Shown: piece by piece, positions 7,801 through 60,969 of the stretch | Layout of the letters: each line of letters opens with the position of its first letter | How positions within the stretch are numbered: the stretch's first letter is position 1 | Assembly: GCA_037157565.1 (NCBI GenBank) | Contig: JAZHRO010000062.1 | Location: 4,960,001-5,024,000 of the forward strand | Reading direction: 5' to 3' | Source: Thalassia testudinum | Taxonomy: Eukaryota; Streptophyta; Magnoliopsida; Alismatales; Hydrocharitaceae | Length of the DNA stretch: 64,000 nt | The notes under the pieces: model-generated | Databases searched by the model: none | What the model saw: only the letters and a program-made list of their open reading frames with translations | Told to the model about the DNA's origin: nothing | Position numbers and translations under genes: made by a program

Positions 7801-7836
7801 ACTTAAGTGTTAAGACCCGTGCCATCAAAGCTCTTT

Positions 7837-8722
7837 TAAGACGTCTGGACACATTCCCAGACATTTGGAAATCAATTTTTGCGTGCGTACAACCGCGAGT
7901 CTGCGCATGTGCCGAACGCAGACTGAGCCCAGCCGCCCTCTTCTCTTTCTTCTTCCCTCGCAGACTTGCAGAGCCTTCCCCCCCACGCCTACAAATATCC
8001 CCTCCTCTCCCTCACGCCACCCCACATCCATCCATCCCCCTTCTTCCTTCAGCGAGGGCGAGAGCGAGGGCAGCGAGTTGCTGCCAAGTGCAGCGGCGGA
8101 GAGGAGAGGGGCGGCGAGAGAAGGGGAGAGAGGAGAGCGCACTAGTCGTGAGGGAGCTCGCCGGAGAGGCTCGAGGCCGGTCGGGCGTGCGTGAGGAGGA
8201 GCGTTGTGCGGGGGAGGTTTCCCCCGGTGCTGCTACAGCTAAAGCAGCGGACGAGCAGCTACGCGGCGCGGCTGCGCGTAGCAGGAAGAAGACGAAGGAG
8301 CTTGTGATTATGGGATTTTTCCCAGAATCAGATATCTGGATCTACATCCAGACGACACGGACGACGTCTGGAGGGAGCTCCAGACGACTGAGAGGTACAT
8401 ACTGCATCCTATGCTTCCTTTTGCGGATACGGCCATGCAGGCCGTTCCGCCGAAGCTCTGTTGCGTGCCGTGTTGAGAGATTTTGCGTGCGCGTGCAGGA
8501 TTCGCTTCGGGAAGGCGTGAGACACGCCCTCCCACGCGGTTCAAACGTCTGGGCGAGGCACCAGACGGCGGAGAACATCTCCAAACGTCCGGAGGGATAG
8601 TCGAAAGTTTGGAACTAGGTCCAGACGGTTCAACAGGATCCCTGGACGTCTGAGGAGCAACGCAGAGCGAGGTATGGATCTGGACCCCTTTTAAGACGTC
8701 TGGAAGGTGTTTCAAACGTCTG
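7837..8722. promoter_or_regulatory. Phased CAGACGTCTG dyad clusters in the Tekay 5' LTR
   Basis: Dyad centres lie at 7842.5 and 7862.5; 8333.5, 8353.5, 8365.5 and 8385.5; 8546.5, 8566.5, 8586.5, 8606.5 and 8626.5; 8697.5 and 8717.5. Gaps inside clusters are 20 or 12 bp. Several copies keep only one half-site (CAGAC or GTCTG). Confidence 0.8.
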
Positions 8723-9015
8723 ATTTGAGTCTGGATTGTCGTTTTTAACCCGTTTAGGGTCCCTTTGAGGTCCGATTTCCGCATTTAAGATTCCGTTCTT
8801 CTCCTTAAAGGTTCCTCTACTTGATTGAAATACTTTTATCCTGTTCTGAGTGGTTCCTTGTGGTTGATCCTTGTGCTAGGACCTTGTTCCATTGCAGATT
8901 TGGGGGTTGCGGAGGCACGCGGACCTGTCGATCGAGCCCCCATTACTCCCGATTTTTCAGGTAGAGTGGCTTCCCTTAGTTAATTACAAACATAAGTGCA
9001 TATCTGGAATAAATA

Positions 9016-9174
9016 ATAGATCCTAGGGTATGGCATGAATCCTAGGACCAAAAACACTAGATTGAATGATAGATCCTAGGGTATAGCATGAATCCTAGGA
9101 TCAGAAACACTAGATTGAATGATAGATCCTAGGGTATGGCATAAATCCTAGGACTAGAAACACTGGAACGATTG
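9016..9174 (+). repeat. 53-bp minisatellite, three units, in the Tekay LTR
   Basis: Units start at 9016, 9069 and 9122. Each reads ATAGATCCTAGGGTAT...GAATCCTAGGA and carries two CCTAGG palindromes. Diverged equivalents occur in the solo LTR at about 57525-57665. Confidence 0.85.
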
Positions 9175-12481: not shown

Positions 12482-12584
12482 TGTTAAGATCCATGCCATC
12501 AAAGCTCTTTTAAGACATCTGGAACTCGGGCCAGACGTCTGGACACACTCCCAGACGTCTGGAAATTAATTTTTGCATGCATCC
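12482..12584 (+). repeat. Left remnant of the Tekay 3' LTR
   Basis: Matches 7808-7892 of the 5' LTR but contains one more dyad period. Dyad centres at 12516.5, 12536.5 and 12556.5 replace the two in the 5' LTR. It breaks at GCATGCAT, where copia sequence begins. Confidence 0.85.
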
Positions 12585-13379
12585 TTTCTCAACTTTAGGG
12601 CTATAAAAATTATCAACTTTGTTGATTAATTTGTTAGAATTTTCCCTAAGACATGCGATTTCTTTTTCTATAAGATCCATCTTAGTCTTTAAATCAGAAA
12701 TTTCTAACTTTAGACTATTATTTTCCTCAATCAATTTAGTATTTTCATTGATTAAATTTTTATTTTCTAAAAGCAGGTTATTAGGACTAGAGCTACTTTC
12801 TAGGTCCCTAAGCTTTATTTCTAACCTATCATTTTCACTTCTAAGAAAACTAAGGTTCTTCTTCATGCTTTTGTTTTCTATTTTAAGTGATTTACTAATC
12901 TCGAATAATTCATTAAAAGCTTCTTGTAAATCAAAATTTACCTCGTCGTCGGAGTCGCTTCCGCTTTCACTGTTGCTATTGGTTCCTCTGGCCATGAAAC
13001 CAAAGCAAGCGATTTCTTCTTCTTCTTCTTCCTCCGAGCTTGTCTCCTCATGAGTGCCTTCCAACCTCCTCCATATCTCGTGGGCGGTGGTGCACTCTTG
13101 GATTTTCTCGAACTCTTCCGGACTCAACGCGCAATACAGGGCATTCATTGCCTTTGCGTTGAGTGAAAGCTCTCGAATCTGCTGCTGCGAGTATCCTCCA
13201 GCGGGTTGCTTCGGGATCTTGTATGGGGTTTCGCAACATCCCCATACCTCGAATTCAGTGGCTTGGAGCCACGTCTTCATCCTCAGCTTCCAGTAGCTGT
13301 AGTTGTTCCCGTCAAAGTAGGGCGGACGGGTTGTGGACTGCCCCTCAGAAATCCTGCTTGTGGAACAGCTTCCCTCCAT
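12585..13379 (-). pseudogene. Copia (SIRE-type) gag fragment
   Basis: The open frame starts with Met at 13379. It contains the copia gag opening PPYFDGNNYSYWKLRMKTWL, the NALYCALSPEEFEKI segment and EIWRRLEGTHEETS. It then jumps to an acidic stretch (SSEEEEEEE), SDSDDEVNFDLQEAFNELFE and a long coiled coil. In intact relatives a zinc-knuckle region and other sequence lie between these parts, so there is an in-frame internal deletion near 13040. The last about 20 residues come from read-through into Tekay LTR sequence. Gag would form the particle; this copy cannot. Confidence 0.85.
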
Positions 13380-13420
13380 GTGATCTTTCCGCGGATGTTA
13401 CTCCTGTCGGCGGAAAACCT

Positions 13421-13432: not shown

Positions 13433-14105
13433 ACTGAAGGTTCCCTACCAGGAGGGGTGACGTAATAAAATTGCGGAAATAAAAATATAAAGCAATCTCA
13501 CAAAAATCGCAAAATGTACACAGGTATTTTTAGGTGGAAACCCAAACCGGGTGAAAACCACCACCTAACCCTCTCGAGTTAGGATTTTCCGATCAACCAA
13601 GTTGATCAAAATCCACTAAACGAATCACTTTGAACGAGGGTGATTCAACCTCAGTACAACCACGCTACAAGTACGAGGGTAGCGTTCCTCAACCCCTTCT
13701 CTCCACGAGAAGGATTTTGTCCCACGAAGGAGACGGGAATTCGCAAAGCGAATACCCAACCAAAATACAAAGATAAAATAAAACAACAGTCCTATAGAGC
13801 CAACAAAATTAAACCTAGCTTCTATAGGAAATAGGAAACTCCCCTTTGCAAGGAGTGCGTCGACGATGACGCGGTGCGTGTGCCACGCGATGGCGCTACG
13901 TCGCTCTCGTTATCAACGCCGGGAGAGCGGGTGCGCAACGGGAATGATGCTCTCAAGATGATGGAGCTTGAGCTTAGAGAGCAAGTGCTTCTTGGACACA
14001 AGAGAGTGGAAATACTTGATCTTAGTGTATCTTGGTCTCTCTAGGTGTATATCTTGTGTGTCTAAGTGTATCCAAGTGTGTTTTTGTGTTGCAAAGGCTC
14101 CCCTC

Positions 14106-14113
14106 TATTTATA
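14106..14113 (-). promoter_or_regulatory. TATA box of the copia LTR
   Basis: TATAAATA on the minus strand, in the context CCTCTATAAATAGAGGG. It is conserved in the second LTR at 52387-52394. Confidence 0.8.
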
Positions 14114-14224
14114 GAGGCCTTAGGAAGGTTTTGGAAGGCTTGGAAAAGCTTCCATAGCCGTTGGGTGCAAAGCCCAAGAGAATCAGGCCGAAATCAGGAC
14201 AATGATTGCATTTGACAGGGTTAT

Positions 14225-14780
14225 CAGACGTCTAACTCTGGCATCAGACGTCTGTAAGGCCACTTTAAGACGTCTGATTTCAAGGTCAGACGTCTGATTC
14301 TATGCGGGTTTCTCCCTGACTTGAATCAGATCTAAACAGGGTTTTTGTGCAAGTCCATCAGACGACATACAGGACGTCTGGCACTATGTCTGGACGTCTG
14401 GAAACCTACTTTTACTGTGGGAATTGATTTCCAAACGTTGCAACGGCTAGAAAATCTCTGAGAAGAGATTTTGGGTCAGCCGAGGCAAAACGGTCATTTA
14501 TCAGACGTCTGTAAAGTCCTATGGACGTCTGATAAGGCTCTAACGGTCATATTCTTGAGCGTCTTCTAAGCCAGCCAACGGTCCACTAACTGGACGTCTG
14601 GCAAAGTCATCAGACGTCTCCTAAGACGTCTGGTCTAAGGTCTGGACGTCTGATTTCATCAGACAGAACTAACTATGTCCAGCCTAACAGTTATCAGACG
14701 TCTGAAATAACAGTCAGACATCTTAAAATTCTTTATCAGACGTCTGATTTGGGAATTAGACGTCTGGAAGTGCTGTTTGA
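14225..14780. promoter_or_regulatory. Phased CAGACGTCTG dyad clusters in the copia LTR
   Basis: Centres at 14229.5, 14249.5, 14271.5 and 14291.5 (gaps 20, 22, 20) and at 14363.5, 14375.5 and 14395.5 (12, 20). Further sites follow to about 14765. The order of gaps mirrors the solo LTR at 51.7-52.3 kb. Confidence 0.85.
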
Positions 14781-15175
14781 ACCCTATATTGGTTTTCTAA
14801 GTATTCTACAGAAAACCTAAGTATCCTAGGGTTGTGCAGGTGTTCCTAGGACTACTTTTAGGGTACTTTGAGGCTCTTTAACATAATGTTCTAAGGAATC
14901 AAAAAGAGCAAGAAAATAAATATAAGAGATACATGAAAGGATAAAAAAGAATCTATCCTATTCTTCTTTTCTTCCATCTCCAATCTTTCGCTCCACGCGA
15001 ACCTCCTTTGTTTTCCGTCAAGCTCCTCCAATCCGTCCTGGATGCGAGCTCGAACTCCGTCTAAACACGTCCTCATTTGCAATTGACCTGAAATCTGGGA
15101 CTCAAATTGCAAATGTTAAATAACACGTGTTTTGTTATCATCAAAACAAATGATCGTGGTGCTCTAGCACCAACA

Positions 15176-40900: not shown

Positions 40901-42294
40901 CTGAAGTTCTATTAAGTTAAGTTTCTAGTTAAGTAACTATTTCCTACAAGATCTTTGTATGCATGAACCTGTTTTATCTTTAAGTTGTATTGATAATGGT
41001 AACAACTGAATATCTCAAAAAAAGAAAAAAAAGGGGGGGACTTTTGCTTAAGAAGACTGTAACCAGAGGTGGCTAAAACTAAATCCAATTATAGAATCAA
41101 CACTATACCTCGCAAAAAAAGTGTCTGTCCGTTTGTCATAACTAAGTTCAGCATCATAACACGATAACATGAACCCCACATGCCCATTCTGCAGTAAAAA
41201 CAAACTTTTTTACTCATCAGCACTTGTTCACTTGCACAAAATGATATTCAAATAAAGCAAAGAAAGACATGAAAGCTGTTCACATGGATTTTGCATAAAT
41301 GGGACTAAAGTATGCCACAAAGCTGTTTGCACTTACTAGAATATTGAAAAAAACTATTCAATCATACATGCCTTTTTTCCTCCGCTATTAACAAGTTGTA
41401 ACGAATTACGGAAAGACAAACCAAACACATTCTAAACAACCATGAAATATACTGATCAAGATACTGGACATAAGTAAAAAGATATCAAAATCGATTGCGT
41501 TTGCCAGGAAGTTTATAAAATCCAAGCGCAAAAACAAGGGATTGGGGTCCATGGATATATACCTCGCGGTTGTATACTTGGGCAGGGAACCAGAATCTGC
41601 CATCCTCCAGAGCCAAATACCGAGACATGATAGAATCAACAGGCAAAGGCTTCCTTGTCTCCTCCCTACCACCAGCGAAATCGCAGCATAGCCAAGAAAG
41701 AGGCCACGAACAAGAGAGCGAGAGCGATTCGATCCATCCTTTCCTCGTCCCTTCACTCAATGGATCATCACCGAGAGATTCCTTCCTCAAGGAGACATCA
41801 CACTGCCACTGCCGACGCGTGGCCTTCCCGACAACAACCCGTCCCCATCTCTCCCTCATGTGCCTCTCCCACAAGCGATCACTCCTGCACCAATCCCTCA
41901 TGGAGCGGCACACGAGCGCCATGTTGCACAACCCATCTGGGGAAAGCCTCCCCAGTATGTTCTCCAAGACCAGATCAGGCAAGTCCAGGGCTGACATCCC
42001 CCCCCCCTCCTCCTCCTCCCCCTCCTCCTCCACACTCTCCACTTTCAGCTGGTTGACCACCTTCTTCTTTATATAACACATATTGGAAAAAGCCCTTCTT
42101 GAGATGATGGCAGCTAATGAGAGGGTGTTGCCCTTCAGCCACTGAATGGAGCAGTGGTACAACTCCTTGCATAGTAACACAAAGACCAATCTCATCTCAC
42201 TTGCCAATGTGGGTAGGTGTTGCAAGGAGGGCAGGAGACTTGATATAAGCAGGAGGAGGAAGAGCAGAGCATAATAAACAAATGGGCAAAGCAT
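28918..42294 (-). CDS. F-box protein (Arabidopsis At2g26850/At2g32560-like), five exons
   Basis: Exons on the minus strand: 42294-41563, 41188-41109, 40748-40570, 40353-40279 and 29105-28918. All junctions are GT-AG and the phases join exactly, giving 417 codons and a TAG stop. Residues 1-30 are strongly hydrophobic ([16 protein letters not shown]). An acidic linker (88-96) precedes the F-box at about 101-146 ([20 protein letters not shown]), which would bind SKP1 in an SCF ubiquitin ligase. The C-terminal part keeps the family's marks: [53 protein letters not shown] and [11 protein letters not shown] chose Met at 42294 because the family starts with a short hydrophobic leader; an upstream in-frame Met exists at 42387. 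No defect is seen. Family naming is from memory; the substrate is unknown. Confidence 0.9.
29272..29276. repeat. Target-site duplication TAGAC (left)
   Basis: TAGAC precedes the LTR start TGATCGAGG. The same five bases follow the other LTR at 39412-39416. Confidence 0.9.
29277..29522 (-). repeat. 3' LTR of the Tat element (shortened)
   Basis: 246 bp, TGATCGAGGCC...CTACCCTCATCA. It lacks about 250 bp present in the middle of the other LTR, between CTTCCTCT and GGGTTTTTACC. Confidence 0.9.
30126..30134 (+). promoter_or_regulatory. TATA box of the antisense gene in the Tat element
   Basis: TATAAATAG on the plus strand, about 79 bases before the first codon of the antisense reading frame. This matches normal plant promoter geometry. 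Confidence 0.6.
30205..32969 (+). pseudogene. Antisense extra gene of the Tat element (gypsy-associated plant protein), decayed
   Basis: The plus-strand reading opens at 30205 with GTG (probably a mutated ATG; SerThrIleThrProGlu follows). It continues to TAG at 30730 through a domain typical of plant gypsy-associated proteins (Pfam Transposase_28-like: [32 protein letters not shown]). After two stops it reaches a plausible intron (31001 GTAAGT to 31073 TTTGCAG). A basic and proline-rich linker follows, then a long helical, coiled-coil part from about 31950 to 32590 ([33 protein letters not shown]), ending at TGA 32967-32969. A 35-bp tandem duplication (31797-31866) disrupts it. The function of this protein class is unknown. 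The gene is convergent with pol. Confidence 0.7.
31797..31866. repeat. 35-bp tandem duplication inside the antisense gene
   Basis: AGGGTTAATCTAAAGAATAT recurs 35 bp later with no change over the unit. It is therefore recent relative to the rest of the element. Confidence 0.85.
33140..38741 (-). pseudogene. Tat gag-pro-pol pseudogene
   Basis: Minus strand from Met at 38741. Gag: a coiled-coil start (38741-38508), [18 protein letters not shown], then [18 protein letters not shown] and FYLDRFKT at 37882. A knuckle-like [17 protein letters not shown] follows (37400s), with Cys changed to Tyr. RT (36007-35621) holds [27 protein letters not shown] and FGLKN. The catalytic box is YIGD instead of YVDD, with the first Asp replaced by Gly. 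RNase H and the second RNase H lie at 35250-34252. Integrase (34110-33140) keeps GMDFVE, VTDNG and EEVSNQTI, then the C-terminal DANWEGPYK. There are many stops and frame changes. It runs in the same sense as the host F-box gene. Confidence 0.9.
38893..38910 (-). other. Primer-binding site of the Tat element
   Basis: The minus strand reads TGGTGCCATCTGTGGGAA, two bases after the LTR end (GGATCA-AT-TGG). The form is usual for Tat elements; I do not assign the tRNA. Confidence 0.8.
38913..39411 (-). repeat. 5' LTR of the Tat element
   Basis: 499 bp, plus-strand TGATCCAGGCC...CTACCATCATCA. It is flanked outside by TAGAC and inside by the primer-binding site. Confidence 0.9.
39412..39416. repeat. 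Target-site duplication TAGAC (right)
   Basis: Identical to 29272-29276. Confidence 0.9.
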
Positions 42295-42990
42295 CGGATG
42301 GTGATGCGAGGGGGACGATATGCCCAGACAGAGGAGGGGAGGGGTCCAATGAGGTTTTTTTTCTTTTTTAAAGCTACCAACAAGCATAGAAAGCAGGATG
42401 GCTCATCGTAAACAAATCAAAAGCAAATCTCCAGGCAAATCTGCAATGGTGAGGGCTGTCCCCAAAAAGTGTGTTGTGGCTGATCAGTAAGTCGAATCCG
42501 ATCGATCAGAAAAGTGCTTCACAGCTCCGTGATGTCAAAAAGCACCGATACCCCGAAGCTTCTTCCCACCTCTGCAGATTAAACTAGGCAAAAAATAACA
42601 CTCCCCAGCAGCAGCAGAAGCAGCAAGAGGAACTCCTACCACCACTGTCATATTAACATGCAAGTGATGGTGGAGGAGTCCACCACAACAAGGGATTTGC
42701 CTAGGGATAATGGAACGGGAGGCCATCTCGTCCCCCTTCCTTGGCCATGGATCGATATTTAAGTGGAAGTGGGGTGGGGCTGCCGCACTTGTGGGTTGCT
42801 CAGAGTAGGTGCAACTAACAACCAAATTAGAATAATGGGCTTTTCTTTGGAAATAAAAAATAAAAAAGATTGGAAACGCCCTCACTTTCGGAGTTTGCCT
42901 GGAATATATATATATATATATATACAGAAAATGTATTCAGAGAGTGTAGCATTTAAAAATATCAAGAAAATTATTAATTTATGACCCAAT
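42295..42990 (-). promoter_or_regulatory. 5' leader and promoter region of the F-box gene
   Basis: About 700 bp with no supported gene. TTAAATAT on the minus strand near 42762-42755 is a possible TATA box, giving a leader of about 430 bases. A 351-bp open frame here (42885-42535) has no recognisable features and starts upstream of that box. An AT microsatellite sits at 42905-42924. Confidence 0.35.
42905..42924. repeat. AT microsatellite
   Basis: About ten AT units, upstream of the F-box gene. Confidence 0.9.
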
Positions 42991-45100: not shown

Positions 45101-45872
45101 TAACAACATCATCATGTTACTAATTAATTCACCATATAATTATAAAATGTATGTTTGGATTTGATGCAACTACGTCTTACTTTTTATGAATACTTTATTA
45201 TTCAAATGATATGTGTAAATTTTTTTGTCAATTTTTATTGATATCGGTGTATTGTAAAACCACCTTTATTACTTTAGGTGGTATTAATTTTGATCATGTG
45301 ATTTTTATCTAATGATTTTCACATGGTACTCATTCAATAGTTTTTAGGCATTGTGCTCAGTGGATTGAACTCCTATAAATATATATATAATAGAAAAATG
45401 AAAAACACAAATCCATTTCAATTGGTCAATCCACACACCTCATATTTCTAAGAGACACGTGAGCTAGAATATGATGTGCGAATTGAGTTGAGGTTGAAAT
45501 GGTGTGCTGTGATACACATGATAGGGCTTAAAATTCCCACCGTTGCTATTGTTTAAAGGCACTATGGGTGCGACTTTCTCTTGTGTGTGGTGACGTATGC
45601 TACGTGGGGTTCCTATGCTCATTTATTAGTAAAGTTGTGGAGTGTTGCTTCTCTTATATTTATGTTTCTATTGTTTGAAATGGTGCGTGTATATCATGTT
45701 TGTATTGATAAAGCGCATGTGCTTTCACTTATGCTCCCACGCCATTGTTCACGATGAATGATGCTTCCCATGTGTGCTTTCACTTCTCCTCTTGCATTTT
45801 TCTCGAGGCTGAAGTTGTGACAGTGTGCTATATGCTTTCTGTTGTACATGGTGACATGCATATCATTGATGG
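45100..45872. other. Spacer, nothing recognised
   Basis: The first half is AT-rich and the rest is mixed. No gene, repeat end or conserved motif was recognised. Confidence 0.4.
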
Positions 45873-47179
45873 TGTAAGTGCACCTTAATCGTTTATTTTG
45901 ATGATAAAAAAATAATTTGTATTTAATAATTGTATTTTACTGTTTAGTTTACAGGACTAATGCAATTGGTTAAAGGCTTTTGGAAGGAGCTTAAGCTCAA
46001 GTCCATGGTAGATTGAAAGAGCTTGCTAAAGAAAAGAAGCATTAAAAGAGTATGGAGTTGGAACTTTAGACTTAAAGTTAGAAGACAAAAAGAATAGGAC
46101 TTAAATTTATTTAATGTAATTTGATGTATTCTTTTTATTACCCTTTTGTTTCTTAGAATGCTTGCAAAAGAGCCTGAAATAAGGTTAATACACTTAGTGA
46201 ATTGTTAGGACACCTAGGAAATCCAAGCCAAGCCTTAAAACACTCAACACAACAAAACACAAGTATAAGGTGTCGACCAAAACATTTATGCACCAACTGG
46301 CTCTTCAATAGCTAGTTGATTGGCTATCTCACTTGCCGATCGGCTCCTTAGTGAGGCTCTGATTGACTGTCGACCTCTAGTTGAATGTTAGCTGTTCTAA
46401 TGTTCAAAAAGTCTTGGAATTTGAACCCATTAAATACACTGTTGATTATGCTTGATTTCCTAAGAGACCTTTAGTTACTGGATGACCACCAAACAACCTG
46501 TCCTATATCAGGGCGTCAATTGATATTATAGCAGGCGTTGACTATTTCCCAAGAATTCCCAAGTCTAGGAACTCTGAACATAGAAACCCTCTGTAGCTAG
46601 CTGACCATGAGTCAATCAATCACTATAGTCCCAGCCGATCGACAATCAACCTGCCAATATAGGTCACCTATGGCTACCCTGACCTTTTGTAGGACATCGA
46701 CTTATTTCTGAGGTTGGTCAACCAACCCTGTACTAGCTAGGCGACCAGGTGCCAACTGGCTAGTACTATCTAACGAGTCTACATTGATTTCCAGAAATCT
46801 GTTGCAACCAATGTCAACCTTTAATGTTCCAACGACCATATCTTCATCCAACACCTATCTAAAGTGTTCCAAACCCCTCTATAAATATAGGAGGACACTC
46901 TTAAGCGTATATATAACAAGAGAAGAGAGTTGCACTAGTGAGCTACTACTTTCATTTATTTACACTTCAAAGTGAGATTGAGATTGTGATTTTGCCTATC
47001 TACACTCCACAATCGAGAGCATCGAAACATTACACATGCATGCCAATCTGCTTTAGTGTTAAGGAAGTAATCTCACACCTATAGGAGCTTATTTTGGCCT
47101 CTATAGGATATTTTATTCTTTGTTTTTATTGGCTATTCATATTGTGGATTTCCTTCTCCTTGTGAGGTAAAATACTCTT
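45873..47179 (+). repeat. Probable copia-like (SIRE-type) LTR, right end cut by a CACTA element
   Basis: TGTAAGTGCACCTT...TTTATTTTGATGATAA at the start resembles the start of the other SIRE-like LTRs here (TGTTGGTGCTAG...TTTTGATGATAACA). TATAAATA at 46880-46887 lies in the same CCTCTATAAATA context, and a leader and a CCTTGTGAGG tail follow. The region before the TATA box carries an array of short dyads (GTCGACC, GCCGATCGGC, GGTCAACC). No PBS or matching target duplication is seen. The sequence stops at CACTACAACAG (47180). Confidence 0.5.
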
Positions 47180-48119
47180 CACTACAACAGTACGCAGGTT
47201 TTGCGACAGTTCTAAATCATCACCAAAACTCTATAAACCATCACCAACGACCGTCAAAGTATATTGCGTTGCTGTTTTATTTTGACGACGGTTACAATCC
47301 CTTGTTGCCGCCTTCTGAGCACGCGGGGGCGAACATGGAAGTAGGATTTGACGACGGTTTTAAAACAAATAAATTACTAACGGTTAGTAATAAAACTATT
47401 GACAATTTTCTTAGTAGGAACCCAATTTACGTGCCAAAAAGTGGCATACTTTTAAGGACAATTTAATAACCGTTGCCAAATGACTGGTGAGATCTCGCGT
47501 TAATTACTGGGGGGCCAAAGGGGCCTATAGTGGTGGTTGTTAAACCGTCGCCTAACTTATTGCACAACGGTTATTATTGATAATCGTCACCAATAATGCT
47601 TTACTTTTTTTTAATGTAATTACACATAACAAATCAGAAATGCACGAAAATAATGTAAATTGTTCAACACATTCAATAGAAAGAAATTGTAAAATGAAAG
47701 TAATTTTTATATCACTACTAGAAAAAGCTCAATTTGCAATGATTTTTTAGGGACGATTTTATAATCGTTGCTAATTAAAAGAGTTAATGACTGCCATTAA
47801 AGACACCATGGTCTAAAGCGTCATCCCTCTCCACAAAACAAATTGTACTCACCGGGTCCTAGGATAAGTTTTAGTGACAGTTATTAATTAACTGTCGCTA
47901 AAGGTTCAGTTAGACTGGTGAAATATTCACTAAATGGCAGAGGGGAAATATATATCCGTCGCTAATGTCCATAAAAATGGGTGCCACCCTGGAAATTTAA
48001 GGCAGGAACCAATTGAATTAGTGACGGTTCTTTTTTTAAACTATCGCTAAGTGCGCCTTTCTAACTGTTAGTTGGCAACCATGTTTTTGAGAACTGTCGC
48101 TAAATCTAGACATTTTCCA

Positions 48120-49080: not shown

Positions 49081-49510
49081 AGATTTAGGGTTTAGAGTTA
49101 AGGGTTTTGGATTTTGGGTGTTGGGTTTAGGGTTTTGGATTTAGGGTTTTGTGTGTATTGTTTAGGGTTTTGGATTTAGGTTTTTGAGTTTAGGGTTTTG
49201 GATTTCGAGTTTAAGATTTAAATTTTGGGCTTAGTGTTTAGGGTTTTGGATTAAAATTTAGAGTTTGGTGTTTAGGGTTTAAGGGTTATGGTTTAGGATT
49301 TTTTTTTATGAAGTTTAGTTACAAAAATTTAATTTAAAACTTGAATTCAATTTAAATTTGGTGTTTAGGTTTTGAAGTTAGGGTTTTCAATTTAGATTTT
49401 TTAGGATTACGATTTTTGATTTATGTTTTTGATTTAGGGTTTTGGGTTTAGTTTGGTTTTGGCTTTTGGTTTTTGAGGTTAGGGTTTAATGTTTAGGGTT
49501 TAGGTATTTT
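49081..49510 (+). repeat. Degenerate telomere-like repeats (TTTAGGG and variants)
   Basis: At least nine exact TTTAGGG units alternate with TTTTGGA, TTTTGGG and similar heptamers, often as a 14-bp pair. The strand and unit are those of plant telomeres. Confidence 0.8.
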
Positions 49511-51076: not shown

Positions 51077-51732
51077 TAGGGTTAGGAATTCTCTTCAAAT
51101 CACAACATTCATTTGCACAAAGTTAGAGCTATGTAAGAAACAACATCAACATTAGCATTTAGTATGTAACTTGAGTTTGTTTGCAAGTACAACAATAACT
51201 AAAAGCTTAAACAAAAGCAATATGAAACTAGGGTAAAGAGAGAGAGAGGAGAAGGCAAGGCGGCCACGATGGTGGAGGAGGGCTCCATCGGCGGCTTGAT
51301 AACTCTGGCAAGTGTGAAGTATGTGTTGGTGCTAGAGCACCACGATCATTTGTTTTGATGATAACAAAACACGTGTTATTTAACATTTGCAATTTGAGTC
51401 CTAGATTTCAGGTCGATTGCAAATGTAGACGTGTTTAGACGGAACTCGAGCTCGCATCCAGGACGGATTGGAGGAGCTTAATGAAGAACAGAGGAGGTTC
51501 GCGTGGAGCGACAGATTGAAGATAGAAGACAAGAAGAATATGATAGATTCTTTTTAATCATTTCTTGTATCTCTTGTCTTTATTTTCTTGCTCTTTTTAT
51601 TTTCCTTATAATATTATGTTAAAGAGCCTCAAAGTACCCTAACAGTAGTCCTAGGAACACCGGCACAACCCTAGGATACTTAGGTTTTCTGTAGAACACT
51701 TAGAAAACCAATATAGGGTTCAAACAGAGTTT

Positions 51733-52276
51733 CCAGACGTCTAATTCCAAAATCAGACGTCTGATAAAGTATTTTAAGACGTCTGACTGTTGTTTCAGAC
51801 GTCTGATAACTGTTAAGCTGGGCATAGTTAGTTCTGTCTGATGAAATCAGACGTCCAGACCTTAGACCAGACGTCTTAGGAGACGTCTGATGGAATTGCC
51901 AGACGTCCAATTAGTGGACCGTTGGCTGGCTTAGCAAACACACAAGGATATGACCGTTAGAGCCTTATCAGACGTCCATAGGACTTTCCAGACGTCTGAT
52001 AATTGACCGTTTTACCTCGGCTGACCCAAAATCTCTTCTCATAGATTTTCTAGCCGTTGCAACGTTTGGAAATCCATTCCCACAGAAAAAGTAGGTTTCC
52101 AGACGTCCAGACACAGTGACAGACGTCCTATATGTCGTCTGATGGACTTGCACTAGAACCCTGTTTAGATCTGATCCAAGTCAGGAAGAGACCCGCCCAA
52201 AATCAGACATCTGACCTTGGAATCAGACGTCTTAAAGTGAACTTCCAGACGTCTGATGATATAATTAGACGTCTGA
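51733..52276. promoter_or_regulatory. Phased CAGACGTCTG dyad array in the copia solo LTR
   Basis: Seventeen dyads, centres at 51738.5, 758.5, 780.5, 800.5; 852.5, 872.5, 884.5, 904.5; 973.5, 993.5; 52104.5, 124.5, 136.5; 208.5, 228.5, 250.5, 270.5. Gaps inside clusters are 20 (eight times), 22 (twice) or 12 (twice). The array lies upstream of the TATA box at 52387. Confidence 0.9.
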
Positions 52277-52386
52277 TAAGCCTGTCAGAACAATGATTGT
52301 TCCTGATTTCGGGCTGATTCTCTTGGGCTTTGTTCCCAACAGCTATAGAACCTTTCCTAAGCCTTCCAAAGCCTTCCTAAGGCCTC

Positions 52387-52394
52387 TATAAATA
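52387..52394 (+). promoter_or_regulatory. TATA box of the copia solo LTR
   Basis: TATAAATA in CCTCTATAAATAGAGGGG, identical to the copy at 14113-14106. Confidence 0.8.
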
Positions 52395-54021
52395 GAGGGG
52401 AACCTTTGCAACACAAATACACACCTAGACACACTAAGAGAAACACAAGACACACTTAAGCAACATAGTTCCACTCTCTTGTGTCCTAGCTAGCTCTTGC
52501 TCTCCAAGCTCAAGCTCCATTCCCTTGACAGCATCAGGCCTTCGCGCACCCACTCTCCCGCCGTTGTTCACTAGAGCGACATTGTGCCGTTGCGTGGCTC
52601 ACTCACCCGCGTCATCGTCGACGCACTCCTTGCAAAGGGGAGTTTCCTATTTCCTATAGAAGCTAGGTTTAAATTCCTTTGTTGGCTCTATAGGATTACT
52701 TGTTTTATTTTACCTTTGTCTTTTGGTTGGGTATTCGCTTTGCGAATTCCCGTCTCCTTCGTGGGACAAAATCCTTCTCGTGGAGAGAAGGGGTTGAGGA
52801 ACGCTACCCTCGTACTTGTAGCGTGGTTGTATTGAGGTCGAATCACCCTCGTTTTAAAGTGATTCGGTTAGTGGATTTTGATCAACTTGGTTGATCGGAA
52901 AATCCTAACTCGAGAGGGTTAGGTGGTGGTTTTCACCCGGTTTGGGTTTCCACCTAAAAATTCTTGTGTTCTTTGTGTGATTGTCTTTTTGTGTGATTGG
53001 TTTTCTGTGGTGAGATTGCTTTATATTTTATTTCCGCATTTATTACGTCACCCCCTCTTCGAAGGGAAAACCTACAGTATGCTTGGTGAAGCTGAGAAGG
53101 AGCTAGGAGTACGGTGGAAGGTGTGTGTGTATTCAATGCCTCCAATGGGGTGGTTGAAGTAAATAGAAGAAAAGGGCTTCCAAAAGCATCGCTGAAGGCC
53201 TCCGCCCACCGATCCATCGTAAGCGCGCATGCTTCTTCTCCCACGATCTGCGATCGCACTGTCGGACGGTCGAGAGTTGCATGGGCGCGTGCACTGAGGA
53301 TCGCGCATCATCTCGCCCGGCGCATCTGCGCACATCCGCTGCGCCGCGTGGCGCGATCCCTACCATCGGCTTCTGCATCAACGGCTGAATTTCGCTTGTG
53401 CACGCTCCTGCTGCCAATTGGATCCTGCCGCAACTCAAACCTGCATTCCTTGCTCGCGGGTAAGGAGCAGACCAACGCGTTGTGTGCGTTGCTTTGCACG
53501 AAAGCGAGGTCGAGCGTGGGGAGGCATCGAACATTGGACGGAAATCCAATGGTCAAGATCTGAGGCTACGGTCGCAAGGGTGCGCGGGTGAGGAGTTCGT
53601 GTGGGTGAGGGTCGTGACGATCGGACAGCTTAAAGTTGTTGAGCATGATGAAGCCGGGGGCGCGCTGCGGGTGAGGCACGTTGGATGCTTCCACGTGGCC
53701 ACCTGTGGGCCATTGATCCTTAAATCAACAGCCAAAACATCTTAGGCTAGTTGAGGGAGCTCTGGATGTCGGATTTGAGTGATTTCAAGTCCGTTAGACT
53801 CAATTCATCGATCTGAATCCATCCATGCAGTTCGATTGCTCATCTGAGGCATGTTTCATTGTGCGCTTGTACATATGGCCATTAAATATTGATTTATAAG
53901 CAATCTTAAATTGCAATGCATGCAGTGCTCTTATGCCCATCATGACATATTATTAGTGCGCATATATCCTCAAAACCAACCACAGTTGATGAAATTATCA
54001 TCATTGAATGTAGAGTTATCA

Positions 54022-56204: not shown

Positions 56205-56347
56205 GCGTCTCTCTCTCTCTATTTCGCTTTTGGGACACAGCTCTCCCAGAGCCTTCCTCGAGTAAACGGGTCGGGTATGCGTGCCCAGTACCAGGCCCAC
56301 CGGCGTGCGGTGGTGGGCGAGGAGTGCATGTGTTACGTACGCGTGCC

Positions 56348-57230
56348 CCAGACGTCTTTTAAGACGTCTGGGAGGTGGCCCAGACGTCGGACCAGACGTC
56401 TGGGATCGTTTCCAGACGTCTGGAAAATAGTTATTTTTCGCACGAGAGATTCGTCTGCGCGCCTGTGCGCGCAGACCCGCGATTCCTCTCTCTCTCTCTC
56501 TCTTTTTCCCTCTCTCTCTGCAGCTGCAGACCTGCCGCGCACTCTCTCCCTCCTCCTCGCGCGGCCTTAAAAGGCCACGCCTCCCCTCCTGTCGTCTCCA
56601 CCGTCCCCTTCCTCTTCTCCTTCCTGTGCGCGAGAGCGAGCGAGCGCGAGGGCGACAGCGGTGGCCGCAGTGAGCACGGAGGAGGTGCGGCGTGCGAGGG
56701 CGGAGCTCTGCCGTGAGGGCGAGCTCGTCGGAGCAGCTTGGCCGACCGGCGGAGGGCGCAGGGGGCGCGGAACGACGCGGAGAGGGACCTGCTGCAGTCT
56801 GAGCAGCAAGTGCGCAAGGTGCGACGCTGGCGGCGTCGCGAGCAGAGGTCGAGTGGTGCCCTGATTCTGGAAAAATTTCTAGAATCAGACGTCTGGGTTG
56901 ATAGCCAGACGGCGAGGGAGACGTCTGGAAGCTCATACAGACGTCTAAGAGGTGAGTATTCCGCTTTCTTCTTCCTTCCTGTCGACTGACCGTACTGAGG
57001 GAGGGAGTTGGATGTGCGCAGGCTAGGTGTTTCGCCATCCTTTGCGAATCAGACGTCTAGCTGTTGTACCAGACGGCGGAAGCGACCTCCAGACGTCCTT
57101 GGTTACCATCGGACGTCTTGGAGATAGGCCAGACGTCCCCGCAGACTTCTGGACGTCTGGGAAACCACGCTGAACAGGTAATTCTCTGATCCACTTTTTA
57201 AAACGTCTGGAAGAAGTTCCAGACGTCTGA
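56348..57230. promoter_or_regulatory. Phased CAGACGTCTG dyad array in the Tekay solo LTR
   Basis: Centres at 56353.5, 365.5, 385.5, 397.5, 417.5; 56890.5, 910.5, 922.5, 942.5; 57054.5, 074.5, 094.5, 114.5, 134.5, 154.5; 57204.5, 224.5. Gaps inside clusters are 20 (ten times) or 12 (three times). Confidence 0.9.
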
Positions 57231-58164
57231 TTTTGCACAGTATCGTCTTTTTCGACCCGTTTAGGGCCCGTTCAGGCTCCGTTTTCCGCGATTCGAGTTG
57301 CGTTCTTTTCAGAATTAATTCCTCTACCCGTCTACAGTAGCTATACACTATTTTGAGACACTCCTTGTGTTTGATCCTTGTGATAGGACCTCGTTCAGTT
57401 GCAGTCTTGGGAGTCGCGGAGGTACGCGGGATTCCCGATCACGCCCCCATTACTCCCGTTGTACCTGGTAGAGTGGCTTAAGTTTATTATTAAAATCTGT
57501 TAAAGTATGGAACCATAACTAGAATCTAGGACATTGCATGAATCCTAGGAATGAAAAATGTATGGAATGATAGCTCCTAGGTGATGCATGAATCCTAGGG
57601 CTGGAAAACTAGTTGTATGCTAGATCCTAGGATGTGGCATGAATCCTAGGATGGAAAACTAGTGGAATGTATAATACTGCAGTCTTGAAAAAATGGAAAG
57701 GAATATAAAGCTGCCTGTAAATTGAAATAACAACTGCCTATTATGAATAAAGAAACATGATTGAGATCATGGATTGTGAGAACGTGAAACTGGAAAGTGA
57801 AACATATGATGTTCTGAGATAAAGAGCTGGAACCCTACGGGGAATTAGGAGTGGTACTCCTGGAAAGAAAAAGGAATGGAATTGAGATGTAGTTTGTACT
57901 GTCTCTTGGGTACGCAGTACCAAGGGAAGTACCTGTACCTGTTTAGTGCAGAGTGGGGCCAGCCACCCTAGGGACCCGGGGTTAGGATTGGCCGCTCTGT
58001 ACCGACTTGCTGGCCCTCGTGTACGTAGTACCGAGGAGAGCTACTAGTGTTAGGAGAGTACTAGCTACCCCACGGGCCCCGGGGTTCTGCTAGTCTCCTT
58101 CACCGACTTGTTAGAACCACTAGGGCAAACCAGGGTAGTCAGGCGAGGGTGCGCAGACTGTGGA

Positions 58165-58230
58165 GGGGCAAGGCCCCGGTTTGGTTACTGTGGAGGGGTT
58201 GGACCCCTGTTACTGAGAGGGCTCTGCCCT
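58165..58230 (+). repeat. Three tandem short hairpins in the Tekay solo LTR
   Basis: GGGG(CAAGG)CCCC, GGGG(TTGGA)CCCC and AGGG(CTCTG)CCCT, at the same 30- and 23-bp spacings as 9781-9846. Confidence 0.7.
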
Positions 58231-60969
58231 GGTTCCGTGCTGTGCTTTGGGCGCACCCGTTAACGGAAACGACTGATCGCGTGCCAGTGCGGGTTAGCTA
58301 CCTGTGCGTTTATCGCGCGTGCCGTAGTCACCGCTACGTCTGTCAGTGACCTTGGGGTGGTTGACTGAGGGTAGGATCACCACGGGGGACTCTCCCGGCC
58401 AGGAGAGCACCACGTGCTACTTCTACTTTTGGAAAAGACTGCAATCAAGATCGTTCCCACGAGGAACATTCGAGATCAAGTAAAGGATCTGAGAAATAAA
58501 TGAAATAGTGAGAAAATTGAAAGATGTGAATAAAGGAAGTAATAGAACATAATAGCTACTGTACACTCTACTGTGGTCTTTAGTTAGTTTGCCACTCTAC
58601 TCAGCGTTTTGCTGACGTGTTACACTCGTTACCTTTTTCAGGACCAGGTGTTGAGCAGCCAGGGTCAGCGGCTGCAGAGGACGCTGGGCCGAGTAGGGTC
58701 CAGTAGAGTTACCACAGTCTTTTGTACCTCTTTTGTTTCTGTTATAGTGAGTAGTTCTTGTTTCCGCTGTACTTTCTTTACCTGCAGTTCATGTTATATG
58801 ATAAATGTTGTTCTACTGTTGTGGTGGTATCTACTATAGTAGTTTCTTTCCTTACTGCTGTACTTCCTGACTGTTAGTTATATTCATGCTGAATGTGGTT
58901 TATTTTACTGCTCTTTTGGTTACTTCCTCGTTGGACGACTAGGTCTTGGGATTAGTCGAGTCGGTCCGGTTCTCGTGTCTCGTAGGGACTCGGGAACCGG
59001 GTCGTTACAGCATGGGTAGTCGGGTCAGGCCAGGTCCGCGGAGGCATGGGTCGCGGATGAGACCGGGTCGGGTGAGTGGGACCACACCCCGTGGATCTGA
59101 GGTGATAAGGCAATGGCACTTTTTCAATTTAAGTGGTGCCTCCCTCTCGTCAGCTTCCAAGGTGGGACTAAATGTCCCACCTTCTTCTCGCGCGTGCCCA
59201 CAGCAGATGTCGTGCTTGATTGCAGCTGCAACTACGACCCTCGATACCAATTGAAGGCCTGGAGATGTTCGCGAAAGCTCTCCGCACGACCTGGGACTGT
59301 GCCCTGGAGTGGGCACAACCTGGAGAAGCTTGTAAGGTTGCTTCAAGCTTCCTTCTCAATGGTGGAGGGGCGACGAAACCTGAAATGCATGAAGACGGCC
59401 TCGTGGCCCTGTCAGATCATAGGAAAACCTTCGTCGTATCACCGCAATGGTGAGGCGAGGGTTGGCTGGCCGCGGGGCGGCCTAGGCATGGGTGCCTAGG
59501 TCGCACTATGGCCGTGAAGGTGGGTTAGGTCGGTGGAGGTGTGCAGTGTGTGTGGCGGTTGGTGAAGGTGCGGAGGATGATTAGTGAGTTGAGGTGGTGC
59601 TTAGGGACCGGTCAGCGAGGAGGGAGGTGGTCTGTGGTGGTGGAGGGAACTCGTCGGAGTGGTGGCCAGAGGTGAAGGGGATGATGGTGGTGGAGTGCAG
59701 CAGTGGTCATTTGAAGGAAATAAAGAGGGGAAAAGAATGTAGAGAGTGAGAGAGACTTATCTAGGGTATTTAGATCGAAGGGGGAAGACGGAGGGCGAGC
59801 GCGGGTGTCTGCCATCACCGGAGACGAAGACCCTGTGGTGAAGGAGCGGCGACGAGGAAGAAAAGCAGAGGGTGCGCTCTGGTACGGCGCGGCATGGAGG
59901 AACATGGCAGAGCGACGAGAAGATGGAGGGAGAGTCACCGGAAGTTGCGGGCAGTTGGCTGGAGTGAGGAGGAGATGAATTTGGGGGGCTTTCTCTGGCC
60001 AAATCAGCTTGAAGGAAGCAAAAGGATCTGAGCTTCCTTAAATAGGCGCGGGCAGAGCAAGATTCGCAAGGACGCGGTGAGAATACCATGCCGGAGGTAT
60101 GGCCGGAGGGAGAGCCATACCTCTCGAGCGTTTGCACGAGAGATATGGGACGTTTCAGAGCATGGGGAGCTGCCCGTGCGGTAGGGGGCGTCGCAGGGAA
60201 TTCCCCTTTTAGATCTTGGAGCAGCTCCCCATGAAATCAAGGAGAAAACCTCCGCACAAAGTCGCCGAAGGTATTGGTCCATGCTGCGATAGCAGAGGGA
60301 CCAAAATGAGGAAAGTGACGAGAAAGATGAGGGGGTCTTTGCAAAGGTTTTCAAAAGTTAAGGGCCAGAATGTAATTTGGTGGACTAAATTGCAAAGTAG
60401 GTCAAGATGACCTTCCCTTAGGTCCAAATTTTGGTATAAACCTAATTTGGACCTAAGGAATCCAATGGTTAAGTTGGATTTTAGGTTTGACCATGTTTGA
60501 CTTGGCATTTTGCATAAAAATCTAAATTAGGTCAAATATTGGGCATGGACCCCAATATAAGTCAAAACAGGTTCCGAAAGCCAAACTGAAGGTTCTAAAC
60601 CCTAGGGGATATTTTTCCATGAATTTTACAGGGTTTGATTGATTTTTATCTTTCCTGAAACCTTATGAATTTAAGTGGGAATGTTTTAGGGTTACAGAAT
60701 GTCATTTAATTTCTAAATTTCACAATAATCCTTTTTTGACTGAACCATCCTACTTTTTCTCTTATTAAGTCCAATTGACCTATGTCTAGACTCTTAGAAG
60801 TCCCGTTGATGCACTGCAATGGTAAAATTACAGTTTTACCCCTTCTTCATATTCTCATTTCAGATCAATAATCCCTTGAATTAGGCCTTCCTTTAAGTTA
60901 TGTAGGAGCTTTTGTTCACTTTATTAGGTCAAAATGTGCTAGTTAGGATTCATGATGAGGTTCTCATCA

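Follow-up and report, generated by a model that had tools for sequence, protein, structure and literature searches.

How do the long terminal repeats (LTRs) of two retrotransposon superfamilies come to carry the same palindrome at the same spacing? The question is raised by the window, i.e. the whole 64,000-nucleotide stretch of Thalassia testudinum DNA analysed here. A preliminary description of it had claimed that a Ty3-gypsy and a Ty1-copia LTR share both a motif, of the CAGACGTCTG type, and a code of spacings of 12, 20 and 22 bp. Here, we show that dyads paired at 20 bp are indeed found in the LTRs of both superfamilies. The code itself has to be corrected: 20 bp remains, and 12 and 22 bp are mostly distances between units. 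The true unit is a double dyad, in which one 10-bp palindrome follows another at a distance of exactly 20 bp.

The first carrier is a Tekay-type chromovirus solo LTR of 2680 bp (56331..59010, plus strand, TG...CA). Its limits come from a full-length alignment with the LTR of locus L020, and its ends were read together with the target-site duplication GCATG at its two edges (56326..56330 and 59011..59015). The interval given previously, 56348..57230, is the span of the array only. The relative at L020 is full-length, its LTR is 92% identical to that of the window, and it encodes, in this order, gag, protease, reverse transcriptase, RNase H, integrase and a C-terminal chromodomain (Chromo PF00385, E 1.2e-06). 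Hence, the element in the window is a chromovirus. Its clade is putatively Tekay, the name used in the preliminary description. Upon recounting, we find the same 17 sites resembling CAGACGTCTG with at most two mismatches, at 56349-57229 in the 5' third of the LTR, and their successive spacings are 12, 20, 12, 20, 473, 32, 20, 112, 20, 20, 20, 20, 12, 8, 50 and 20 bp. At this threshold the spacing of 20 bp occurs eight times and that of 12 bp three times; adding the three-mismatch site 56906 and the pair 57130/57150 raises these counts to ten and four. The ten and three reported earlier are right within the mismatch rule then used.

These sites form two blocks with about eight double dyads, one of them including a three-mismatch member. 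The head block (56349..56422, LTR 19-92) has five sites spaced by 12, 20, 12 and 20 bp, and the body block (56886..57229, LTR 556-899) has 12 sites with at most two mismatches, or 13 with 56906. Between them lies a putative TATA box, GGCCTTAAAAGGCC (56563..56576, plus strand, LTR 233-246), which aligns with TATAAA or TTATAAA in some relatives. The body block being downstream of this box, most Tekay sites would be transcribed. Between units of the body array there is also a candidate splice pair, GT..AG, whose donor side resembles AG|GTRAGT (56952-57021). Its GT is present in 13/13 aligned Tekay rows and its AG at the aligned acceptor column in 8/13; the pair might delimit a small leader intron within the LTR. 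Just downstream of the Tekay-type arrays we observed a second repeated palindrome, CCTAGG, in tandem repeats with periods of 50-53 bp inside Tekay-type LTRs (9012-9164 and 57536-57669).

The second carrier is a Sirevirus-type Ty1-copia solo LTR of 1753 bp (51324..53076, plus strand), flanked by the target-site duplication GTATG (51319..51323 and 53077..53081). Its array (51734..52275, LTR 411-952) consists of 16 sites forming eight double dyads, with pairs at exactly 20 bp starting at LTR positions 411/431, 453/473, 525/545, 557/577, 646/666, 777/797, 881/901 and 923/943. About 110 bp past the array stands the TATA box CTATAAATAG (52386..52395, plus strand, LTR base 1063 of 1753). A box of the cTATAAATAg type near the middle of the LTR is thus present in this Ty1-copia element, and its CTATAAA is kept in 10/10 aligned copies. 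The window contains a second copy on the minus strand (13435..15175), a 5' LTR followed by the primer-binding site (PBS) and 88.5% identical to the first; its 16-site array (14225..14766) has identical spacings in reversed order. The 16-mer spanning the 5' LTR and the PBS, CA/ATTGG/TATCAGAGC, is matched 16/16 in L006 and L022 and 15/16 in the copy at 13435, which has GTTGG. Sirevirus LTRs are recognised by at least eight palindromic boxes of the repeated motif (RM) in the upper half of the LTR, and there are 16 here. The CGG-CCG signature of RM is lacking: with both families pooled, the outer dinucleotide of the half-sites is CA in 464/704 cases and CG in 29/704, and the others include AA (72), TG (56) and TA (42).

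The Sirevirus-type copies that we examined are non-autonomous. Next to the LTR at 13435 is a truncated copia gag (12510..13397, minus strand; Retrotran_gag_2, E 7.3e-11), the last part of whose reading frame runs into the head of a Tekay LTR. Two insertions, L006 (560-5777) and L022/L030 (L022:7630 to L030:3315), have internal regions, 1534 and 1525 bp long, that are collinear and, for the most part, about 84% identical. The LTRs of the latter are about 98% identical. We found no pol in these two insertions with an interior of about 1.53 kb, where reading frames were listed for one: in L030 a truncated gag is the only frame of at least 150 amino acids ahead of the 3' LTR. The end blocks of the Sirevirus array in the window (51718-51807 and 52202-52291) are inverted copies of each other, matching at 39/40 site bases and 23/52 other bases, an arrangement that points either to an inverted duplication or to selection for mirror symmetry. 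Further upstream, 45867-47200 is a diverged Sirevirus-like LTR relic, whose first 270 bp are 66.5% identical to 51324-51584 and which has a TATA-like CTATAAATATAGG. From 45867 on, this relic shows no CAGACGTCTG array. Hence, the motif, or the factor that would read it, is not used by every such family in the genome.

Neither the motif nor its spacing is expected from the composition of this DNA. The core GACGTC occurs 55 times in the window for 5.08 expected, a count that 0/100 shuffles reach. Pairs of GACGTC exactly 20 bp apart number 21, whereas 5000 jittered placements give a mean of 1.1 and a maximum of 7. When all hexamers with at least three different letters are ranked for fixed spacing (two-letter words such as ATATAT, with 15 pairs at 6 bp, are excluded), the next-best words are overlapping pieces of the same motif with at most 15 pairs, and after these the count falls to 4. 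The 4.26-Gb genome contains the exact arrangement CAGACGTCTG-N10-CAGACGTCTG 22,560 times, and its reversed control not once. The enrichment implied by a spacing code is also borne out in the sampled clusters: among 191 nearest spacings of at most 60 bp, taken from 30 clusters of at least three sites without an anchor, 114 are exactly 20 bp, two are 19 and none is 18 or 21. Other spacings in this sample are 12 (17 times), 40 (13 times), 22 and 32 (12 times each).

Arrays are not confined to the two LTRs described above. In the window, one lies in a second, diverged Tekay-type LTR family (8329..8722), and three sites at 20-bp spacing (12512..12561) belong to the head of a further Tekay-type LTR, which matches 7808-7886. 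We compared the 54 arrays of at least four sites in the window and loci L005-L024 with reference LTRs. Forty-eight match a Tekay-type or the Sirevirus LTR, some weakly. The other six match poorly or not at all (L007_3893, L009_3065, L011_7233, L013_2122, L016_4911 and L016_5422); judged by eye, five of them have their spacings in the order seen in Tekay, and L013_2122 has too few sites for a judgement. Among these 54 arrays no third superfamily was shown to carry the motif. Five unselected 10-kb loci (L025-L029) contained arrays in one case (L027), with Tekay-like spacings. Elsewhere in the window we noted a degenerate TTTAGGG repeat, i.e. an interstitial telomere-like tract (49084-49301), and a reading frame with an F-box domain on the minus strand (41485-42402, E 2.5e-10). 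One Dof protein of 371 amino acids has its closest relatives, among 120 of 6335 matches listed, in monocots at about 50% identity; this single gene indicates a plant host that is probably a monocot.

If the sites matter to the elements, they should stand out from the bases between them, and they do. Conservation was scored among the other copies of each family, at sites defined on the window copy. In the Sirevirus family (nine other copies) sites score 0.957 and linker decamers 0.854 on average, and 0/382 shifts of the geometry reach the observed value. The eight sites outside the end blocks score 0.953, again reached by 0/382 shifts, though random linker draws go up to 0.958 (2000 draws). In the Tekay family (12 other copies) sites score 0.868 and linkers 0.691, with 0/200 shifts reaching the former; without the sites most used as anchors the value is 0.857. 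The Tekay figures concern 13 of 14 rows, leaving out L013, which is non-homologous past about LTR base 500; with this row included they are lower, 0.829 and 0.821. Spacings are conserved as well. Seven of the ten Tekay steps of 20 bp are unchanged in all 13 rows, and the remaining three are kept in 12, 10 and 9 of them. Two steps of 12 bp are kept in 12 and 13 of the 13 rows. Long gaps drift: that of 473 bp is kept in 1/13 rows, that of 112 bp in 5/13 and that of 50 bp in 9/13, so that the 20-bp step from 780 to 800, kept in 9/13, does no better than the latter. In the Sirevirus rows 74/80 units are exactly 30 bases long. The two LTRs of a single Sirevirus-type insertion tell another part of the story, for they differ at 3/160 site bases and 19/1565 other bases. 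No constraint on the sites is thus seen after insertion, and conservation would have been set among replicating elements.

These patterns bear on the origin of the arrays. They would be trivial if the arrays were simple tandem duplications or low-complexity sequence without function, and the output of Tandem Repeats Finder does include 20-bp periods, at 12513-12564 and 51753-51814. We nevertheless consider such an artefact hardly credible. The inner six linker bases of units in the same array have identities of 0.28 and 0.262, against 0.244 and 0.24 after shuffling; being no more alike than shuffled sequence, they indicate that tandem slippage did not lay down the 20-bp ruler. With all ten linker bases the identities are 0.304 against 0.255 in the Sirevirus array (p 0.04) and 0.364 against 0.256 in the Tekay array (p 0.0005), an excess that reflects common end bases. 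Neither the conservation of sites above linkers in both families nor the presence of one motif in two unrelated LTRs fits such an artefact, and AGACGTCT is the only 8-bp palindrome with at least three letters that occurs four times within 600 bp in 294 kb. Another possibility is that a short cassette of sites moved from one LTR to the other and then spread by duplication, in which case the likeness would be homology and not convergence. Opportunities for exchange exist, since nested insertions are common here and since both the window and L007 have Sirevirus copies that adjoin Tekay LTRs. Both families also have an AAGAC variant preceded by TTTT as well as GTCCA or GTCCG half-sites, but these variants fit a common reader as well as common descent. 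The preliminary description had named a recombination tract, for example of several hundred bp, as an explanation that would speak against its own reading. When the Sirevirus LTR is compared with four Tekay-type LTRs with sites masked, the six best matches of each comparison include no such tract; they are at most 32 bp long, and the best E is 0.046. Masked unit contexts have a mean identity of 0.268 between families, equal to background, and linkers one of 0.256. An in-register context score of 24/38, reached by 0/2000 shuffles, arose partly from neighbouring sites in the flanks and fell once these were masked. Unit order and long distances also differ between the families. The best masked pair of units matches at 16/28 positions (p 0.012 against shuffles), which leaves room for the copying of a very short piece; as an account of the arrays, however, shared descent of a cassette appears rather improbable to us.

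Two further explanations concern what the arrays do. Each unit is an inverted repeat, and the dyads might thus matter as RNA or cruciform structures, the stems of the array serving as templates for small RNAs, as has been proposed for the palindromes of maize Sireviruses in the part of the literature available to us (via PMC10760457). In fact, array RNA folds below dinucleotide shuffles, with z of -5.8 for the Tekay body and -9.7 for the Sirevirus array (0/100 shuffles each), and the mirrored end blocks of the latter would suit such a role. In 194 distinct deviating units, dyads pair with each other at 7.87 of 10 positions against 7.76 when shuffled (3/500 reach it), and outer linker bases are complementary above shuffled values (0.676 against 0.528 and 0.431 against 0.311), small excesses in statistics that ignore family structure. 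Yet stable folding is expected of palindromes anyway, and stems do not need an exact spacing of 20 bp. Compensatory changes are nearly absent. None was found among 27 dyad changes in the Sirevirus rows. In the Tekay rows there are 18/131. Eight of these fall at CpG positions; of the ten that remain, eight are due to the misaligned row L013 and two reflect a single event in L018. Covariation was rejected as a sign of hairpins on these grounds, with that one event remaining, and protein binding ranks above hairpins as the selected property. Structure is thus an unlikely target of selection, and small RNAs derived from hairpins may be a side effect.

Alternatively, one of the elements could encode a trans-acting protein that binds the arrays and lifts silencing, as VANC proteins do for VANDAL elements, and the second family would have learned to use it. 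The preliminary description had drawn this analogy, and the architecture is similar, with a short motif in many non-coding copies. VANC6 motifs are also found in AT9TSD1, a transposable element unrelated to VANDAL that responds to VANC6, according to the accessible part of one study (PMC5735166), and active sunflower Tekay elements are said, in what is available of another, to encode an additional open reading frame (ORF) for a protein resembling dsRNA-binding proteins (PMC12844716). In our data the analogy finds little support. If arrays were protected from methylation, their CpGs should deaminate less. In the Tekay family motif CpGs are deaminated in 19.3% of 270 cells, against 19.0% of 615 and 20.7% of 270 for the two sets of other CpGs. 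In the Sirevirus family, anchored sites included, the figures are 9.0% of 167 in the motif, 11.1% of 144 for other CpGs in the array span and 11.3% of 354 outside it. Between the 5' and 3' LTRs of one insertion 2/16 motif CpGs and 6/52 others have changed. Decay is somewhat lower in the Sirevirus motif, and three comparisons out of four show fewer CHG transitions inside the motif, but constraint would have these effects as well. By this deamination proxy, the germ-line methylation of integrated arrays seems to differ little from that of the sequence around them. This argues against a lasting protection of the VANC kind, though not against a short-lived one. Nor did we recognise an extra gene in the full-length Tekay L020 or in the gag-only Sirevirus-type copies examined. 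The three sense reading frames of L020 with matches are gag, pol and integrase-chromodomain only, the other eight of at least 120 amino acids (seven of them antisense) are without any Pfam match, and the two Sirevirus-type insertions have a 1.53-kb interior with a truncated gag where frames were listed. We thus regard an element-encoded anti-silencing protein as very improbable, slightly more so than the moved cassette.

The reading that we prefer, and think reasonably likely, is that the arrays are cis-regulatory and that through them both lineages exploit a single DNA-binding factor, probably a host protein. The unit would be a 30-bp composite site made of two CAGACGTCTG dyads, and since 20 bp is about two helical turns, two dimers or one tetramer would bind from almost the same side of the helix. 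In Tekay-type and Sirevirus-type LTRs alike, this unit would be read by one sequence-specific nuclear factor, most probably host-encoded, which would drive or gate the transcription of both. The two lineages may have reached the common site separately or by copying very short pieces, and would have it in common because both exploit that factor. From conservation against drifting linkers in two unrelated LTRs, and from the TATA-like neighbourhood of the arrays, we infer binding by a protein, its cooperativity, the host origin of the factor and activation as the outcome. Some observations complicate this picture. GACGTC is the C-box of bZIP proteins, but A/T flanks such as those found here are not known to be usual for it. 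The Sirevirus array lies upstream of CTATAAATAG, but the Tekay sites lie on both sides of the TATA-like box and most are downstream of the presumed start, so that the two arrays may differ in their job. Enhancer arrays can act from both sides of a start. The fact that array RNA folds far better than shuffles makes a structural role possible and counts against our preferred reading.

A bolder version is that one plant factor reads the composite code, that two superfamilies converged on it and that their bursts are coupled. We put this forward tentatively and think it rather less likely than not to be right in full. If it is, one switch would serve both Tekay chromoviruses and a non-autonomous Sirevirus family, and, with families competing for the host regulator, the code would recur in different lineages instead of other motifs. 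The 2010 description of Sirevirus arrays names no reader, as far as the available part of that paper goes (PMC2829016), and among the matches listed by our literature searches we found none. The common geometry in unrelated LTRs narrows the search, because a reader of both must recognise the 30-bp double dyad, and this is directly testable. Confirmation would mean that two superfamilies exploit one host switch, and could help to explain coordinated amplification in a 4-Gb genome.

Sharing of a motif between families of transposable elements, as such, has precedents in the palindromes of maize Helitrons and in the VANC6 motif of AT9TSD1. In maize, the Sirevirus palindrome CACCGGACNNNGTCCGGTG recurs in structured Helitron regions, where no other motif is as common (PMC10760457, in the part available). 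As here, one palindrome recurs across superfamilies of one genome; the maize case differs in that it involves Copia elements and Helitrons, and regions of predicted RNA structure, and that part mentions neither a fixed spacing nor a Ty3-gypsy LTR. The target motifs of VANDAL elements given in the accessible text, YAGTATTAY and AGTTGTMC, are not palindromes (PMC5735166). They resemble our arrays in being short motifs accumulated in non-coding parts and, in the case of VANC6, present in an unrelated element. They belong to DNA transposons with a VANC gene of their own, whereas CpG decay at our sites carries no clear sign of anti-silencing. LTR boxes of the Tnt1 type are repeated, sometimes palindromic activator boxes bound by host factors. 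They are similar to our arrays in being repeated within an LTR; to our knowledge, they occur in few copies in one family and have no fixed ruler common to superfamilies. Such stress-responsive boxes are also mentioned in the work on Sireviruses (PMC2829016).

The closest known system is that of the Sireviruses themselves. Bousios et al. described in 2010 palindromic RM arrays upstream of the TATA box in Sirevirus LTRs, with 8-32 boxes per element; most of those in the LTR start 200-400 bp into it, span 300-500 bp and precede a box of the cTATAAATAg type (PMC2829016). The 16 sites of our Ty1-copia partner at LTR 411-952, with the TATA box at 1063, fit this layout. Usier has the RM GTCGGACGTCCGAC (PMC2829016), which contains the GACGTC that we find and whose core GGACGTCC also occurs in variant half-sites seen here. 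The outer CGG/CCG of RM is CAG/CTG in our arrays; the signature is usual and not universal, Tnd-1 being without it (PMC2829016). Judging from the sequences, two CpG transitions, one per end, might have turned CGGACGTCCG into CAGACGTCTG, a path that the AA and TA half-sites do not fit. In the text available, RM is called specific to Sireviruses and absent from the classic Ty1-copia elements compared (PMC2829016). Here, RM-type boxes are not confined to Sireviruses, the carrier of the Tekay array being a Ty3-gypsy chromovirus. By analogy, the Tekay array would work like an RM array whose carrier is not a Sirevirus. Among the matches listed by our searches, titles on the CAGACGTCTG decamer and close forms did not deal with plant transposons, and none described such an array in a Ty3-gypsy LTR. 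The preliminary description knew of no account of this array. The palindromic arrays of Sireviruses were in fact known, and what is new is the fixed geometry of the unit, with boxes paired at exactly 20 bp, and its presence in the LTR of a Ty3-gypsy chromovirus, which the same box also fills.
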